This document shows positions 5,559 through 27,321 of a stretch of DNA of 32,558 nucleotides, in pieces; positions within the stretch are counted from its first letter, which is position 1, and every line of letters begins with the position of its first letter. The translations under genes and the position numbers were made by a program. The notes under the pieces were generated by a model. The model was not told the origin of the DNA. It saw only the letters and a list, made by a program, of their open reading frames with translations, and ran no database searches. Origin of the DNA: Candidatus Taylorbacteria bacterium RIFCSPHIGHO2_02_FULL_46_13 (lineage in GTDB: Bacteria > Patescibacteriota > Minisyncoccia > Phycocordibacterales > DSPV01); contig MHRQ01000020.1 of NCBI GenBank assembly GCA_001821015.1, positions 108,977 through 141,534 of the forward strand. The letters are read 5' to 3'.

Positions 5559-5566
5559 AGGTTAGC

Positions 5567-5583
5567 GAAGGTTCAACCTTCGT
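5567..5583. repeat. REP-like palindrome overlapping the RAYT 3' end
   Basis: CGAAGGTTCAACCTTCG; same core at 6283-6314 and 11225-11241. Confidence 0.85.
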
Positions 5584-6250
5584 TGGAAAATTCAAGATAC
5601 AGTCTAATAAAGCTATCGAAATCACACGTGTTGGGAAAATAAGTTGGGAAAGTCTCTCTAGCTAAGATAGTTTTTTCAGGGCGGCTTTCTCCAGTGTATT
5701 CTTTGTAGCTTGAAAAACGGTAGCCATCCAGGAAGGAATTTGCTTTCCGCATCTTTTGTATACCCGACTCCTTCCAATTTGGCTCTATGAGTTTTACTGG
5801 ATTGAGATGAATGTATGCGAAGAGATATTTCAGGTACTCGTCTGTATGTGCATGTTTTGCCTTGAACCTTCCTTGAAATAATGCTCCAGTACGGTCGTAT
5901 TTTTTGTTGAAGTACATGGTATATGCAGTATTGAGTTTCTGCATGAATTTACTAATACCCAATCCTTTATCGGAAAACTCTTGGACGAGAAGATGAAAGT
6001 GATTTGGCATGAGACAATAGGCTCCGATTTTCACAAGTAATTTTCCACGATTAACGTTAAATATATCAGTTACTGAGATTCCAGAAATGAACAGCTCTCT
6101 TATATCAAGCGCGTTTTCGGTATTACATAAATACAAGAGCATTATAAACCTTGTCCGATCGTGATCATTCAAAAAGGTCTCTCTTTTATCGGTGCCTCTA
6201 TTATAGAGGTGATAATATTCGCCTGTACCGAATTGAAAATTTCTAGTCAT
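5573..6250 (-). CDS. REP-associated tyrosine transposase (RAYT; Y1_Tnp/HUH family)
   Basis: YYHLYNRGTDKRETF, YCLMPNHFHLLVQ (HUH), TGALFQGRFKAKH, YLKYLFAYIHLNPVK: typical RAYT motifs. Confidence 0.93.
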   Translation of the reverse strand: MTRNFQFGTGEYYHLYNRGTDKRETFLNDHDRTRFIMLLYLCNTENALDIRELFISGISVTDIFNVNRGKLLVKIGAYCLMPNHFHLLVQEFSDKGLGISKFMQKLNTAYTMYFNKKYDRTGALFQGRFKAKHAHTDEYLKYLFAYIHLNPVKLIEPNWKESGIQKMRKANSFLDGYRFSSYKEYTGESRPEKTILARETFPTYFPNTCDFDSFIRLYLEFSNEG

Positions 6251-6282
6251 ATATCGGTATTGAGTTTATCAGATAAGAAACA

Positions 6283-6314
6283 AAGGTTCAACCTTCGCGA
6301 AGGTTGAACCTTCG
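6283..6314. repeat. REP-like double palindrome upstream of RAYT
   Basis: AAGGTTCAACCTTCG|CGAAGGTTGAACCTT is a perfect 30-nt palindrome (6283-6312), followed by CG. Confidence 0.9.
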
Positions 6315-6353
6315 TTTAAGTTATTTTGCCTTAGTCTCTGGTATAATTTTGAT

Positions 6354-7376
6354 ATGAAGAAAATAAAAGTTGCGATTAATGGGTGCGGCAGAATTGGGCG
6401 GGCGTTTTTGAAGTTAGCGGTTAAGCGGCCGGAACTCCAAGTGGTTGCGGTCAACGACCTCGGCGATATCAAAGACATCGCTTATCTTTTGAATTACGAT
6501 TCGGTTTATGGGCAAAGCGGGCTTGGGGCGCGCGCCGAGGGAAGCGATTTGATTGTTGACGGAAATAAAATTGCTTATGTGTCGGAAAAAGATCCGGCGG
6601 TTTTGCCTTGGGCGAAGTTCGGTGTTGATGTCGTTGTGGAGGCGACAGGGCGATTTACTTCTTTCGAATCGGCACGGGTGCATATTACGGCGGGGGCGAA
6701 AAAAGTGGTGGTGACGGCACCAGTCAAGGATTCGCCGAAAGATAAAACCGAAGCGACAGTTTTGATGGGAGTAAATGAAGAAATGATGGGCGGGGCGACG
6801 GTGACTTCAAACGCTTCTTGCACGACCAATTCAGCCAGTCCTTTGATTGCGATTTTGGATGAAGCGATTGGAATTGAAAAAGCGGTTTTGAATACTGTTC
6901 ACGCTTATACCGCTAGCCAAGGAATTGTTGACGGGCCAAACAAAAAAGATTTTAGAGAGGGAAGGGCGGGGGCGGTAAATATCGTGCCGAGTTCAACTGG
7001 CGCGGCGATTGCCGTGACAAAGGCTTTTCCAAAGCTTGAAGGACTTTTTGATGGGATTTCTATTCGGGTGCCGGTCGTCATTGGGTCAATTGTTGACGTG
7101 ACTTTTATTGCTAAACGCGAAACTAGCGCCGAAGAAGTCAATAAAATTTTAAGTGGCGCCGCGGCGGCGCCACGCTGGAAAGAGATTTTTGGAGTTACCA
7201 CTGAGCCGCTTGTTTCTTCTGATATTATCGGTCAGCCCCTTGCATCCCTGGCAGACCTTTCTTTCACCCGTGTCGTCGGAGGAAATCTCGTTAAGGTCCT
7301 CGCGTGGTACGACAACGAAATGGGGTACACCTATACCTTAGTAGAGCATGTCATCCGTCTCGCCTCAAGTTTATAG
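6354..7376 (+). CDS. gap: Type I glyceraldehyde-3-phosphate dehydrogenase
   Basis: INGCGRIGRAFLK, SNASCTTNSASPL (catalytic Cys), NIVPSSTGAA, WYDNEMGYT. Confidence 0.97.
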   Translation: MKKIKVAINGCGRIGRAFLKLAVKRPELQVVAVNDLGDIKDIAYLLNYDSVYGQSGLGARAEGSDLIVDGNKIAYVSEKDPAVLPWAKFGVDVVVEATGRFTSFESARVHITAGAKKVVVTAPVKDSPKDKTEATVLMGVNEEMMGGATVTSNASCTTNSASPLIAILDEAIGIEKAVLNTVHAYTASQGIVDGPNKKDFREGRAGAVNIVPSSTGAAIAVTKAFPKLEGLFDGISIRVPVVIGSIVDVTFIAKRETSAEEVNKILSGAAAAPRWKEIFGVTTEPLVSSDIIGQPLASLADLSFTRVVGGNLVKVLAWYDNEMGYTYTLVEHVIRLASSL

Positions 7377-8753: not shown

Positions 8754-9623
8754 ATGACTATTGAAGAAAGAAAAATTTTTGCGCTGGAGAAAAAGGCGAA
8801 TCAGCTTCGCCAGATTGTCATTGAAGCGCTTGTTGAAGCAAAATCCGGTCACACGGCGGGACCTTTAGGTATGGCCGATATTTTCACCTACCTCTTTTTC
8901 TACGCGCTTCGCCATGACCCGAAAAATCCTACGTGGGAAGAGCGCGATAGGCTGGTGCTTTCAAACGGCCACATTTGCTCGATTCTCTATGCCGCGATGT
9001 GCTCTGCCGGATATGCGAGCGTAGACGAATTTAAAAAAACTTTGCGCAAATTTGGTAGCAAATTCCAAGGCCATCCGCACCGTGATTTTTTCCCTGCGCT
9101 TGAGACAAGCTCGGGTCCCCTCGGAAGTGGTTTGTCGCAAGCTGTAGGCATGGCACTTGCTCATCGGATGGACAGAGGACGCTCATCTGGCCGGTTCTTC
9201 TATTGTCTGATGTCTGACGGTGAGCTTGACGCGGGAAATTCATGGGAAGGTGCGATGCTTGCGGGCAAAGAGAAGCTGGGGAATCTTATTGCAATTGTAG
9301 ATCGCAACAACATTCAAATTGACGGATTTACGGAGGACATTATGCCACTTGAGCCACTCGTTGATAAGTGGCGTGCGTGGAATTGGCATGTGCTTGAGAT
9401 TGACGGCAACAACATCTGGCAGATTGATCGTGCGATTCAGGAAGCAAAATCAATTTTCAACCAACCTTCGGTTATTATCGCGCACACGGTTCCCGGTAAA
9501 GGCGTGCCCGAATTTGAGCGCAAGTATGAATGGCACGGCAAGCCACCCAACAGGGAGGAGGCCGAACGCGCGCTGAAAGCTTTAAGATCTTTAGGGGGCA
9601 AGATTACAAGCGAACATCAATAA
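8754..9623 (+). CDS. Transketolase N-terminal subunit
   Basis: GHTAGPLGMADIFTYLFF, GSGLSQAVGMALAHRMD, SDGELDAGNSWEGAMLAGKEKLGNLIAIVDRNN (TPP-binding). Confidence 0.95.
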   Translation: MTIEERKIFALEKKANQLRQIVIEALVEAKSGHTAGPLGMADIFTYLFFYALRHDPKNPTWEERDRLVLSNGHICSILYAAMCSAGYASVDEFKKTLRKFGSKFQGHPHRDFFPALETSSGPLGSGLSQAVGMALAHRMDRGRSSGRFFYCLMSDGELDAGNSWEGAMLAGKEKLGNLIAIVDRNNIQIDGFTEDIMPLEPLVDKWRAWNWHVLEIDGNNIWQIDRAIQEAKSIFNQPSVIIAHTVPGKGVPEFERKYEWHGKPPNREEAERALKALRSLGGKITSEHQ

Positions 9624-9908: not shown

Positions 9909-10940
9909 ATGCTTATCTCATCCCAAAAACTCAATCCTAAGATTTTCGACAAAGATGTTGAAATGCAACCAATTCGTAAGGGGTTTGGAGAAGGTTTGCT
10001 TGCCGCAGGTGAAGCGGATGAGCGGGTTGTTGGGCTTTGTGCAGACCTTACCGAGTCTACGCAGATGCATTTGTTCAAAGAAAAGTTCCCGCATCGTTTT
10101 GTTGAAATCGGTGTCGCAGAGCAAAACTTAGCAACCGTTGCCAGCGGCATGGCCGCGATGGGGAAAATCCCGTTCATCTCTTCTTACGCTATGTTTAGCC
10201 CGGGGCGTAATTGGGAGCAGATAAGAACGACGATCGCGTACAACAATGTACCAGTCAAAATCGCTGGCTCGCACGCAGGCGTCTCTGTCGGTCCCGATGG
10301 AGGCTCGCATCAAGCTTTGGAGGACATCGCGATGATGCGCGTGATGCCACGTATGGTGGTACTTTCTCCCTGCGATTCTATTGAAGCACGCAAAGCAACT
10401 ATTGCCGCGGCAAAGACAAATACACCAGTTTATATTCGTTTGGCTCGTGATAAAACACCAGTGATAACCACAGAAGAAACGCCGTTTGAAATAGGGAAGG
10501 CGAGTTTACTGTGGGAGCCTCACAACCTACAAGGTCCGACCTTGTATACAAGGTCCGACCTTGTAGGTAGGGTGGGCATCATTGTCACCGGTTCTCTAGT
10601 CCACGAAGCTCTCAAAGCCGCGAGACAACTTGAAGAAATAGAACGAGTTTCGGTTTCTGTGCTTAACCTTGCCACTATCAAACCTCTGGATGTAGACGCG
10701 GTTGTAAAACTTACAAAAGAAGCCGGAGCGATTGTTACCGTAGAAGAACATCAGAAAATGGGCGGGATGGGAAGCGCTGTCGCAGAGTGTCTCGCAGGCA
10801 ACTGTCCGGTGCCGATAGAGTTTGTTGCAGTGGATGACCAATTTGGCCAGTCAGGCACGCCATCAGAACTTGTCGCACACTACGGTCTAGATGCGCCGCA
10901 CATTGTCCAGGCGGTAAGAAAAGTTATTAGTAGAAAATAG
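9909..10940 (+). CDS. Transketolase C-terminal subunit
   Basis: VGLCADLTEST, FVEIGVAEQNLATVASGMA, GSHAGVSVGPDGGSHQALEDIA, IKPLD. Confidence 0.95.
   Translation: MLISSQKLNPKIFDKDVEMQPIRKGFGEGLLAAGEADERVVGLCADLTESTQMHLFKEKFPHRFVEIGVAEQNLATVASGMAAMGKIPFISSYAMFSPGRNWEQIRTTIAYNNVPVKIAGSHAGVSVGPDGGSHQALEDIAMMRVMPRMVVLSPCDSIEARKATIAAAKTNTPVYIRLARDKTPVITTEETPFEIGKASLLWEPHNLQGPTLYTRSDLVGRVGIIVTGSLVHEALKAARQLEEIERVSVSVLNLATIKPLDVDAVVKLTKEAGAIVTVEEHQKMGGMGSAVAECLAGNCPVPIEFVAVDDQFGQSGTPSELVAHYGLDAPHIVQAVRKVISRK
10525..10568. repeat. In-CDS palindromic element: two exact tandem 19-nt units within a longer near-palindrome
   Basis: ACC-[TACAAGGTCCGACCTTGTA]x2-GGT; units at 10528-10546 and 10547-10565. Confidence 0.95.
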
Positions 10941-11224: not shown

Positions 11225-11241
11225 CGAAGGTTGAACCTTCG
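11225..11241. repeat. REP-like palindrome (solo copy)
   Basis: CGAAGGTTGAACCTTCG followed by TTGAAAAA, matching the context of the RAYT-adjacent copy. Confidence 0.85.
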
Positions 11242-14159: not shown

Positions 14160-14867
14160 ATGACATTTGTTCAATTAGATACAAAGCAACCCCGCACCAC
14201 TTTTACGCCGCGTAAAAGTGGTGCGGGGTTTACCCCGTTAGTAGAAGATGGCATTGCGCTTCGTGTTTTAAAAACACTATCTTCCAAATTAAAATCTTTT
14301 TTCAATACACGTCATGACCTATTTCGCACAAGAGCAAAAAACACGATGCCATCTTACACTACGGGGTTTACCCTTATTGAGCTTTCAGTTGTTGTCGTGG
14401 TCATCGTTATCATCGTCTCCGTAGTGCTCGTCAATTTCAATGATGTTCGTAAAAATGCGCGCGATAAACAGCGCGTGTCAGATATGGCGCACCTGCAGTT
14501 GGCCATTGAACAGTATTATGATGACACGGTGGCGTATCCAATGTGTGGGGTTAAGTCCCTCTGTTATTCAAACGGTAGTTACGCCGGTGATATAGGCCCC
14601 ATCATCAATCTTGCCATTTCTCCCACCTATATGCGAATTATACCCGTTGATCCATTAAATCAGACTGCGGATTACTATCTCTATTATTACGCGCGAGGGT
14701 ACCGAAAAGACCCAACAGATTCTAATAATTGTCCTACGTTCACGGGTAACACAAACGACTATGTTTTGGCGACACGGCTAGAAAGACAGCCAGCCGGCCC
14801 TTGCAGTTTTGAGTTCATGACTACCGCGCTCGGGAAGTACCCCAACCTTATCCTTGGCAATGAGTGA
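14160..14867 (+). CDS. Type IV pseudopilin-like protein
   Basis: GFTLIELSVVVVVIVIIVSVVLVNFNDVRKNARDKQR. Promoter TGGCACAAT 6 nt upstream supports ATG 14160. Confidence 0.85.
   Translation: MTFVQLDTKQPRTTFTPRKSGAGFTPLVEDGIALRVLKTLSSKLKSFFNTRHDLFRTRAKNTMPSYTTGFTLIELSVVVVVIVIIVSVVLVNFNDVRKNARDKQRVSDMAHLQLAIEQYYDDTVAYPMCGVKSLCYSNGSYAGDIGPIINLAISPTYMRIIPVDPLNQTADYYLYYYARGYRKDPTDSNNCPTFTGNTNDYVLATRLERQPAGPCSFEFMTTALGKYPNLILGNE
14188..14230. repeat. Perfect 21-bp hairpin (1-nt centre) inside pseudopilin leader coding region
   Basis: AACCCCGCACCACTTTTACGC-C-GCGTAAAAGTGGTGCGGGGTT. Confidence 0.97.
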
Positions 14868-14912: not shown

Positions 14913-15860
14913 ATGAAAATGAACAGAGAACACGGGTTTATCCAGCACCACTTTTATAGCGGCTATAAAAGTGGTGCTGGATTCACTCTTATAGAGCTTT
15001 TAGTAGTTATCTCAATAGTCAGTTTGCTTGCCAGTGTCGTGTATGCCTCGCTTTCTAATGCTCGGGGCAAGGCAACTGTGGCCGCGGGTCAGCAATTTTC
15101 TGGACAAGTTAAACGAGCTTTGTACGACAAAGCGGCGATTTATCTTGATTTTGACAGCCTTGCAGTTGGGGCAAACTTGACTACAGAATTGTCGAAAAAT
15201 AATCAAGGGACTCTTGTCTTACCTACGGCGATTACGTATCAGACCGGTACTGCCAGCCTTACTACAGATACCACGTTGTATAAAAGGGGGAATCATCTCA
15301 TAGTAAATGCAGCACCTACTTATGGAATTATATATAGCCCTGTCAGCGGTCTTAATACGATTATGGAGTCTCTGAATTATACGCTTTCCGGGTGGTTACT
15401 AGTTCCCGCAGGTGTCTCAGGTACCGTAGTAATCGTCGGCGAAGATGTTGCTGGGTCGGGTAATTATGGAGTCGCAAATCTTAAAGCGTGTCTTTCTAAT
15501 GGAAATGTAACTGGTGTTACAGCTAATTACCCTAATAATGGCGGTCAATTGGTGGTTCCGTCTTCGGGTTGCGAGCCGGTCTCCGTTCCAAGTGGACAAT
15601 GGGTTCACCTCGCCGTGTCTGTTAAGAACAAAAATAATGGTACGGTTGACATTACTTTTTTCGCGAATGGGAAACAATTAAACACATATAACAAATCTGC
15701 AGCTTATTCTGGCGCTAATGCGAGCTTTTTTATCGGGAGTGGAGGGAACGCGAATTACCAGTTTGACGAGGTTGCTATTTTCAGTCAAGCGCTTACCGCG
15801 TCTGATTTTCACGCTATTTATGCCGCAGGAGCCGCCGAGCACGGCTTAGCAGTCAAATAA
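14913..15860 (+). CDS. Type IV pseudopilin with C-terminal LamG/concanavalin-like domain
   Basis: KSGAGFTLIELLVVISIVSLLASVVYASLSNARGKA then LNYTLSGWLLVP...FDEVAIFSQALTASDFHAIYAAG. -10 TACAAT 6 nt before ATG 14913. Confidence 0.85.
   Translation: MKMNREHGFIQHHFYSGYKSGAGFTLIELLVVISIVSLLASVVYASLSNARGKATVAAGQQFSGQVKRALYDKAAIYLDFDSLAVGANLTTELSKNNQGTLVLPTAITYQTGTASLTTDTTLYKRGNHLIVNAAPTYGIIYSPVSGLNTIMESLNYTLSGWLLVPAGVSGTVVIVGEDVAGSGNYGVANLKACLSNGNVTGVTANYPNNGGQLVVPSSGCEPVSVPSGQWVHLAVSVKNKNNGTVDITFFANGKQLNTYNKSAAYSGANASFFIGSGGNANYQFDEVAIFSQALTASDFHAIYAAGAAEHGLAVK
14941..14981. repeat. Perfect 20-bp hairpin (1-nt centre) inside second pseudopilin leader coding region
   Basis: TCCAGCACCACTTTTATAGC-G-GCTATAAAAGTGGTGCTGGA. 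Confidence 0.97.
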
Positions 15861-15936
15861 CCCCTCTTTTAATCTTCTCTTACCCCTCTTACCAGTTTTA
15901 CCGCTTGTTCCTCTTACGCTTTTTCTCCACTTACAC

Positions 15937-15978
15937 ACATACACACCTCTGATGCGGCCGCATCAGAGGTGTGTATGT
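15937..15978. terminator. 42-nt perfect palindrome between convergent genes (likely bidirectional terminator/barrier)
   Basis: ACATACACACCTCTGATGCGG|CCGCATCAGAGGTGTGTATGT. Confidence 0.7.
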
Positions 15979-16016
15979 ATTGAAGTCAATGCTACGAGCA
16001 AAAAAATTCGTAGTTC

Positions 16017-17463: not shown

Positions 17464-17555
17464 AGGCGACTGATTCAAATCAGTAATTTTCACCCTATAT
17501 CGGTCGTCTACATTACATGATTATACGCGATGTATAATCATGTATAATCATGTAT

Positions 17556-18896
17556 ATGCCCGAGAATCGGAGTGTTTTGGTAACGCGCAACAGCTCCCAC
17601 GGGGGATGTTTTCTTGTTGTATGTGCAGTTTTAATAGGCCTGCTTTGTTTTTCTCATACCGCAACCGCACAGGTAGAGGGCAGTGAGGTTAGCTCACGTC
17701 GGGCTCAACTTGAGAGCGATCTTGCCGCGCTTGAGAAAGAAATTGACACCCAGCGGGTTATTCTTGAGGCAAAACAGAAAGAGACCGTGTCTTTGGCGCG
17801 AGATGTGGCAATTCTCAATGCAAGTATTCAGAAGGCAAAACTTTCTATCAAGGCCCGTACCATTGCGATACAACAACTTCAGGAAGATATTGGAAGTAAG
17901 CAAAATACTATTGTCGGGCTTTCCAACAGACTTGATCGGGAAAAGCAGTCTCTCGCACAAATCATCCGACGCACCAATGAAATTGATTCGTATACGCTCG
18001 CTGAGGTTTTTTTAAGCGGTAACAACATCTCCGGTTTTTTTGAGGATTTGGATGCATTTGATTCAGTGAAAGTTTCTCTGCGCAGTTCGTATGTCGCTCT
18101 TATAGCCAATAGAGATCAAACACAAGCGCAGAAAGCCTCTCTGGAAGATAAGGCCGCCCAAGAGACAGCGCTTCGTCAGAGTCAGGAATTAGAAAAAAAG
18201 CGCATTGAACAGCAGGAAGCGGAAAAAAAGCGTATCTTGACTATTTCCAAAGGAGTTGAGGTCACGTATCAGAAAATAATTTCCACAAAGGGAAAAAGCG
18301 CAGCAGCCATTCGGGCCGAGCTCTTTACCTTGCGTGGCAGTGCGGCGATTCCGTTTGAGAAAGCGTATGAATTTGCTGTCAGTGCGTCGCAAAAAACGGG
18401 CGTGCGTCCAGCTCTCATTCTTGGCATTATCGCTGAAGAATCCAATTTAGGAGAGAATGTGGGAACAGGGAACTGGCGCGTAGATATGAAAAATCCGCGT
18501 GACACCGTGCCATTTCTTGATATCACCAAACGTCTAGGGCTTGATCCAGACAAGATGCCCGTTTCCAAAAAACCGTGGTATGGCTATGGCGGGGCAATGG
18601 GACCGGCGCAGTTCATTCCCTCCACCTGGATTTTATATGAAGATAGAATCGGCGATGAGACCGGGCATCGGCCTCCCAATCCATGGGACCCGGAGGATGC
18701 ATTTACGGCCTCCGCGCTTTTATTGGAGGACAACGGAGCCGCGAAACAAACCCCAGCGTCCGAACGTCTTGCGGCGCTACGGTATTTAGCCGGATGGGCC
18801 AATGCGTCTAAATCCGCCTACTCATTTTATGGGGATGATGTGATGGAGCTCGCGGCTAAGTATCAATCGCTCATAAATATTTTGAAGGCGAATTAA
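17556..18896 (+). CDS. Secreted coiled-coil (EnvC/PcsB-like) protein with C-terminal lytic transglycosylase-like domain
   Basis: Signal-like TM, long coiled coil, then ALILGIIAEESNLGENVG...YGGAMGPAQFIPSTW. Confidence 0.85.
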   Translation: MPENRSVLVTRNSSHGGCFLVVCAVLIGLLCFSHTATAQVEGSEVSSRRAQLESDLAALEKEIDTQRVILEAKQKETVSLARDVAILNASIQKAKLSIKARTIAIQQLQEDIGSKQNTIVGLSNRLDREKQSLAQIIRRTNEIDSYTLAEVFLSGNNISGFFEDLDAFDSVKVSLRSSYVALIANRDQTQAQKASLEDKAAQETALRQSQELEKKRIEQQEAEKKRILTISKGVEVTYQKIISTKGKSAAAIRAELFTLRGSAAIPFEKAYEFAVSASQKTGVRPALILGIIAEESNLGENVGTGNWRVDMKNPRDTVPFLDITKRLGLDPDKMPVSKKPWYGYGGAMGPAQFIPSTWILYEDRIGDETGHRPPNPWDPEDAFTASALLLEDNGAAKQTPASERLAALRYLAGWANASKSAYSFYGDDVMELAAKYQSLINILKAN

Positions 18897-18925
18897 AAAC
18901 CTACAAGGTCGAACCTTGTAGGTTT
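18897..18925. terminator. Perfect 13-bp hairpin after lytic transglycosylase gene
   Basis: AAACCTACAAGGT-CGA-ACCTTGTAGGTTT; starts 1 nt after TAA. Confidence 0.75.
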
Positions 18926-18953
18926 AGTTTGTCGGGTTATGAGGTTGGGAAAG

Positions 18954-18982
18954 AAAAAAAGGCAAGGTGTAACCTTGCCTTT
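18954..18982 (-). terminator. Intrinsic terminator for minus-strand gene
   Basis: AAAGGCAAGGT-GTA-ACCTTGCCTTT; with the preceding A tract this gives a T run on the minus strand. Confidence 0.85.
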
Positions 18983-18991
18983 GGACACTCG

Positions 18992-19219
18992 CTACACCTC
19001 CCAAGGAAACTGCTCTATTTCAACTTCGTCAGTTTGTTTGAAGAGAACCAGACCACCGCTACCAGGCCTGTTCCCCATGAAGACTGCATTACTTGCTACC
19101 GGTTCTCGGTACAAGCGATCTAGTTTAACAAAGGGTTGTAACGTGCCGTGGATTGCGAACGAGCGGAAAGTGGTTCCTCCTGGCAATTCAGAAAAAGTGC
19201 TTTTTCGTCTTTCAGACAT
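18992..19219 (-). CDS. Hypothetical 75-aa protein
   Basis: SD AAAGGAG upstream of ATG; promoter TTGACA-16-TATAGT on minus strand; intrinsic terminator downstream. Confidence 0.7.
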   Translation of the reverse strand: MSERRKSTFSELPGGTTFRSFAIHGTLQPFVKLDRLYREPVASNAVFMGNRPGSGGLVLFKQTDEVEIEQFPWEV

Positions 19220-19304
19220 AACATTTTCTCCTTTCTTCTCTTTCTACTATAGTTTTTGCAACACATTTGTCAACGTATTTCTTTTCTGCTATAGTACTTT
19301 CGTC

Positions 19305-19550
19305 ATGCAAAAAGAGCTTCACCCCACATATCATAATGCCGCTAAAATAACCTGTTCCTGTGGGCAGATTTATACTATTGGATCCACGAAAGAAACGATG
19401 CATATTGAAATTTGTAGCGCGTGCCACCCTTTTTATACGGGAAATGACAAGGTTCTAGATACTGCTGGACGTGTTGAGCGCTTTAAAGCTCGTCTTGCTA
19501 AAAAGGATACTGCAAAGCCGGCAAAGAAGACTCGTGCCGCAAAAGCGTAA
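19305..19550 (+). CDS. rpmE: 50S ribosomal protein bL31
   Basis: MQKELHPTYHNAAKITCSCGQIYTIGSTKETMHIEICSACHPFYTG. The listed ORF start (18939) overextends; promoter TTGTCA-17-TATAGT then 9 nt to ATG 19305. Confidence 0.95.
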   Translation: MQKELHPTYHNAAKITCSCGQIYTIGSTKETMHIEICSACHPFYTGNDKVLDTAGRVERFKARLAKKDTAKPAKKTRAAKA

Positions 19551-27236: not shown

Positions 27237-27269
27237 GACTAGTTAAAAAAATTCCGTACAGTACATCTC

Positions 27270-27301
27270 CACAATAAGAATGCTATAGCATTCTTATTGT
27301 G
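27270..27301. terminator. 32-nt perfect palindrome between convergent gyrB and CARDB gene
   Basis: CACAATAAGAATGCTA|TAGCATTCTTATTGTG. Confidence 0.8.
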
Positions 27302-27321
27302 TAGGTGTGGTGTGAATTGAA

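Follow-up and report, generated by a model that had tools for sequence, protein, structure and literature searches.

The stretch of DNA analyzed here, hereafter the window (32,558 nucleotides; G000:C20:108977-141534), comes from an assembly of 887 kb in 32 contigs and harbors the genes of a split transketolase, whose relatives are found in Patescibacteria MAGs, including Zambryskibacteria, Nomurabacteria, Taylorbacteria and Vogelbacteria. The C-terminal subunit is encoded on the + strand by the ORF at 9909-10940 (Transket_pyr 2.5e-40, Transketolase_C 9.6e-25), and the solved structure nearest to its product is 6yaj. Within this gene, at 10525-10568 on the + strand, lies a 44-nt palindrome (ACCTACAAGGTCCGACCTTGTA/TACAAGGTCCGACCTTGTAGGT) with the form of a REPIN-like doublet, composed of two exact 19-nt copies of TACAAGGTCCGACCTTGTA (10528-10546 and 10547-10565) with ACC and GGT as flanks, and the ORF stays open across it, reading FEIGKASLLWEPHNLQGPTLYTRSDLVGRVGIIVTG; a previous inspection of the letters (the sequence-only reading) had described both features, and both were confirmed. 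As RNA the 44-mer folds into one hairpin of −31.6 kcal/mol, against −9.4 ± 2.7 for shuffled sequences (z −8.1), and the 19-nt unit, searched on both strands with up to three mismatches, has six matches in the window where 0.01 would be expected. The two units stand as a direct doublet, yet they fold as a single hairpin, and this arrangement was perhaps produced by a later 19-nt duplication.

Comparison with homologues shows that the segment at 10525-10568 has truly been inserted. In L008, a same-genus homologue with 77% identity, the sequence is FEIGKAQIFFAPESGKPVVGIIATG where the window reads FEIGKASLLWEPHNLQGPTLYTRSDLVGRVGIIVTG, the loop being 23 aa long in the window vs. 12 aa in this sister; the net gain is thus about 12 aa (36 nt), slightly less than the 14 or so residues first proposed for what is nevertheless a real insertion. 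Among 80 homologous loci, 64 of which were measurable (the automatic pattern failed on the remainder), the loop spans 10-13 aa in 52 and at least 14 aa in 12. The inserted loop residues (about 206-218) were placed by an AlphaFold model of the subunit (mean pLDDT 85) between strands 199-202 and 221-226, with pLDDT below 50 at residues 208-213, which is consistent with a flexible interdomain loop and agrees with the loop position raised in the sequence-only reading. In L047, L061, L084, L088, L107, and L119 this loop extends to 24-45 aa and contains stretches such as RLRQGYGGQ and ISVNQRGNQR, unlike the present palindrome, and it seems to be a general insertion hotspot. A clean pair of empty and filled sites at the nucleotide level was obtained neither for genome G019, the only member of its family in this collection, nor for G119 against its congener G047, where the flanks align and the element sits in a non-aligning stretch; nor was polymorphism among strains or excision of the element observed.

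The unit is not confined to the transketolase gene. Pattern searches of the whole genome returned 6 copies of ACAAGGTNNNACCTTGT vs. 0 of the reversed pattern, and 26 of AAGGTNNNACCTT vs. 2 of the reversed control, 9 of these 26 falling in the window, which makes up 3.7% of the genome (0.95 expected, binomial 2e-7). The residues are missing from the sister homologue and the unit has further copies in the genome, and on both counts the proposal of an inserted repeat survived. In the window, a single copy (CGAAGGTTGAACCTTCG) is intergenic at 11225-11241, and a related one (AAACCTACAAGGTCGAACCTTGTAGGTTT, 18897-18925) directly follows the stop of the ORF at 17550-18896; the latter hairpin had been presumed to be a terminator, and while its kinship with the repeat holds, a terminator function is not established, a proper T-run on the + strand being absent. 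A possible further member (AAAGGCAAGGTGTAACCTTGCCTTT, 18958-18982), near the start of the ORF at 18939-19550, has a centre that departs from the core, and its membership of the family is uncertain.

The core of the family, AAGGTYNRACCTT, is dispersed in the window's own genome and patchy across the order. Its CNG-centred form, AAGGTCNGACCTT, was found in 31 of 148 order genomes, with 150 copies vs. 6 for the reversed control, reaching 29 copies per genome and dropping to zero in several congeners; a chance origin of the repeat was rejected on the strength of the shuffles and the reversed-pattern controls. Doublets across the order are mostly inverted (e.g., AAGGTCTGACCTT-N11-AAGGTCAGACCTT) and therefore fold into one hairpin. 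When 67 distinct copies were sampled, 24 lay within ORFs of at least 120 aa, some of which, being single, may be chance occurrences, and 43 lay outside, while 9 of 22 doublets or longer clusters were within such ORFs. As the in-ORF share (24/67) is far under the 85% of sequence assumed to be coding (p 8e-20), we infer that the majority of insertions into genes have been lost. Viral contigs, searched as potential carriers, gave no match to the doublet.

The transketolase loop is occupied in other genomes as well. In-frame doublets are present at the same position in G002 (FYSS-RFDLKSEERLNL-GS) and G003 (LQKK-RLNLKSEERFNL-EKPK), both of the same family as the window, and in G019 (DSI-SRSDLDKEYQGLTL-MKSG), which belongs to another family; their DNA centres are TCG/TGA, TAA/TTA, and CAG/CTG, respectively, and each folds into one hairpin. 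The doublets of G002 and G003 may represent one ancestral insertion, since the spacer AAATCTGAAGA is common to both, and the insertion of G019 looks independent. The gene for the N-terminal subunit (8754-9623, + strand) lacks the element in the window: the comparable stretch measures 9 aa in 28 loci, among them those of the window and its sister, whereas G002 and G003, which have an in-frame doublet there, show 20 and 21 aa, respectively. Further in-frame doublets were found in ORFs identified through Pfam as MurB, UvrC, RsmI (TP_methylase), Dus, and RpiB, the last with 17 aa in the stretch concerned vs. 6 aa in four relatives. Single cores also occur within ORFs for leucyl-tRNA synthetase, a UvrD-like helicase and pyruvate kinase, and these, as 13-mers, may partly be due to chance. 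Besides their AAGGTC doublets, two ORFs of G019 show other insert-like segments, namely SVIPAEAGIQ in Dus (L158 970-2166) and a long one before KKLFAGW in MurB (L031 541-1779).

About 4 kb from the transketolase insert, the window encodes on the − strand an intact Y1/HUH transposase of 225 aa (5573-6250), whose product matches Y1_Tnp (PF01797, Pfam 5.7e-10, above cutoff) and bears the HUH motif NHFHLL. Its sole NCBIfam match is REP_Tyr_transpos, the model of REP-associated tyrosine transposases (RAYTs), at 44.5 bits, under the curated cutoff of 80, and for this reason it is called here RAYT-like, being at most a divergent relative. The gene is bracketed on both sides by AAGGTTCAACCTT palindromes: CGAAGGTTCAACCTTCG lies at its 3′ end (5566-5582), and upstream, at 6278-6317, AAACAAAGGTTCAACCTTCG/CGAAGGTTGAACCTTCGTTT forms a double palindrome. 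This bracketing by the same palindrome type, a feature absent from the sequence-only reading, puts the element with REP/REPIN-RAYT systems. The exact pairing of this transposase with the transketolase copy is not proved, because the centres differ (TCA/TGA in the palindromes next to the transposase gene, CCG in the transketolase). A second RAYT of the same genome, L133 (G000:C6:548-1210), is bracketed by a different palindrome of the type CAAGGC..GCCTTG (GGCAAGGCCTCGCCTTGCC and its inverse). The RAYT of the window adjoins an apparent gap (GAPDH) gene at 6354-7376, and a RAYT likewise adjoins an apparent gap gene in G050, a genome of another family (L042 270-1316, 1550-2419); the G050 transposase had no match when its sequence was searched against the PDB.

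With a profile built from two RAYT-like proteins, relatives were detected in 54 of 80 genomes. Perfect palindromes with arms of at least 8 nt accompany 35 of 62 RAYT ends; the corresponding figures are 36 of 1600 for random windows and 44 of 431 for the 3′ ends of other ORFs. Many loci have the same palindrome on both sides, and many of the flanking palindromes are variants of AAGG-N5-CCTT. Next to the one RAYT detected in G019 lies TATCAAGGTCTGACCTTGATA, a palindrome of the type that this genome also has in its rsmI and transketolase inserts. The presence of any RAYT and that of the core were weakly associated across genomes (24/31 vs. 28/47, p 0.08), which is probably due to the different palindrome variants of the RAYTs.

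Other palindromes of the window do not belong to this family. Two of them, at 14188-14230 and 14940-14982, share the core CACCACTTTT..AAAAGTGGTG and lie in frame near the starts of two prepilin-like ORFs, that at 14940-14982 immediately preceding GFTLIELLVV. This second family has 4 copies in the same genome and 8 in G039, and of 98 genomes of the order 7 contain it, with 0 for the control; local templated inversion as the origin of both palindromes was rejected, the same core being dispersed in other genomes. Two more long palindromes of unrelated sequence, neither with a spacer, are located at 15929-15986 (arm 29 nt) and 27258-27313 (arm 28 nt).

Taken together, we consider it probable (about 0.8) that the 44-nt palindrome is a RAYT-mobilized REP/REPIN-like element, a doublet of the core AAGGTYNRACCTT devoid of the classical GTAG/CGTC tag. 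A Y1/HUH transposase such as that at 5573-6250 would most likely recognize the hairpin in single-stranded DNA, TACAAGGTCCGACCTTGTA and GAAGGTTCAACCTTC being the putative substrates of the 225-aa protein in that form, and would then copy or join it at another place; the palindrome may have been spread by this RAYT or by a relative formerly present. Copies that are in frame, free of stops and located in a tolerant surface loop would be those that survive, and in the transketolase the surviving copy would lengthen by about 12 aa the connection from the pyrimidine-binding domain to the C-terminal domain, in an enzyme that presumably still works. A broader proposition, which we put forward only tentatively and which may well claim too much, is that an untagged RAYT-REPIN lineage of Patescibacteria repeatedly puts coding hairpins of 36-42 nt into housekeeping enzymes at preferred landing sites, with the transketolase C loop hit independently across families, and thereby supplies small genomes with new protein loops.

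Alternatively, recombination, natural uptake or a different transposase could have spread the palindrome in frame, RAYTs merely residing among palindromes and their association being secondary. Genomes that bear the core and have no detected RAYT do exist (G041, G136, G073, G117, and others), and CGTC REPs of the classical type have no transposase of their own, yet are dispersed and occur within genes (PMC3733652); however, the neighborhood of RAYT ends (within tens of bases) has palindromes far more often than the background, and different RAYTs are bracketed on both sides by palindromes of different sequence, so that we regard such a route as unlikely. Far less probable is a function of the hairpin as a signal in RNA or DNA (for mRNA stability, attenuation or protein binding) that selection maintains at this place, its coding role being secondary: the very stable fold and the pairing preserved in G002, G003, and G019 despite different bases would fit a signal, but at this locus the element is absent from the same-genus sister and from almost all relatives, and the same element is scattered through unrelated genes of other genomes. 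As for an ordinary lengthening of the loop, or a local templated duplication that became palindromic by chance, loop length does vary in many species devoid of the present palindrome and in the window's copy the 19-nt unit is directly duplicated; yet the recurrence of the unit in the genome and the order, far over controls, contradicts this origin and leaves it hardly credible. The RAYT-mobilized element thus remains the preferred reading.

REP elements are extragenic by name, and in-frame copies, already reported, have attracted little attention. The present RAYT-linked palindromes lie in frame in core enzymes of an uncultivated group with small genomes, have a candidate transposase nearby, and offer natural presence/absence comparisons for the questions of how REPINs spread, whether certain landing sites are preferred and whether short selfish hairpins turn into parts of proteins. 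Since related repeats occupy the same protein loop in other species, the element looks like a selfish hairpin that has repeatedly added short segments to enzymes.

REPINs (PMC3116915) and RAYT genes flanked by inverted REPs (PMC2817692) are known, and enzymes of the IS200/IS605 and REP families recognize hairpins in single-stranded DNA, act through tyrosine chemistry and leave no larger target duplications (PMC2817692; PMC6006769). The present family resembles REP/REPIN-RAYT systems in its short palindromes, its frequent inverted doublets forming one hairpin and its patchy, dispersed numbers, and also in that the palindromes bracket a Y1/HUH transposase gene and accumulate locally near it. In contrast to them, it has no GTAG foot, its core being AAGGTYNRACCTT or variants, its copy number is modest compared with classical REPs (0-29 per genome for the CNG-centred core), and about one third of the sampled copies are within ORFs. 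The open-access literature that we searched contains no article in which Patescibacteria are mentioned together with repetitive extragenic palindromic sequences or REP-associated tyrosine transposases; this speaks only weakly for novelty.

Intragenic GTAG/CGTC REPs are likewise known (Di Nocera et al., 2013, PMC3733652), and they share with the present family in-frame REPs or dimers in housekeeping and repair genes; they were presumed to lie in tolerated linkers or loops, and in the case of recB approximately the same site is occupied in two species. The present family differs in being untagged, in belonging to Patescibacteria and in the recurrence of one transketolase loop across families. 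TIRYT/TIRtron elements (PMC3733652; PMC6006769) are similar in having RAYT-related transposases and inverted-repeat flanks devoid of GTAG, some of them self-complementary, but the flanking palindromes listed here, as judged by inspection, have mostly AAGG-N5-CCTT-like cores and do not show GGGGWSAS, a motif described for many of those elements. The sequence-only reading had likened the element to Rickettsia RPEs, and the analogy holds as regards in-frame palindromic insertions into the genes of a reduced genome; membership does not, as RPE-4 and RPE-6 are CGTC-tagged REPs, of a class with no associated transposase (PMC3733652), and the tag is absent from the present family, a comparison made by tag and description. 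Of the 180 sides of 90 cores, counted on both strands, only 2 adjoin GTAG and only 2 adjoin CGTC, and the family is for this reason not filed with the classical tagged REPs: it is a REP-like variant, distinct both from these and from the CGTC-type RPEs of Rickettsia.
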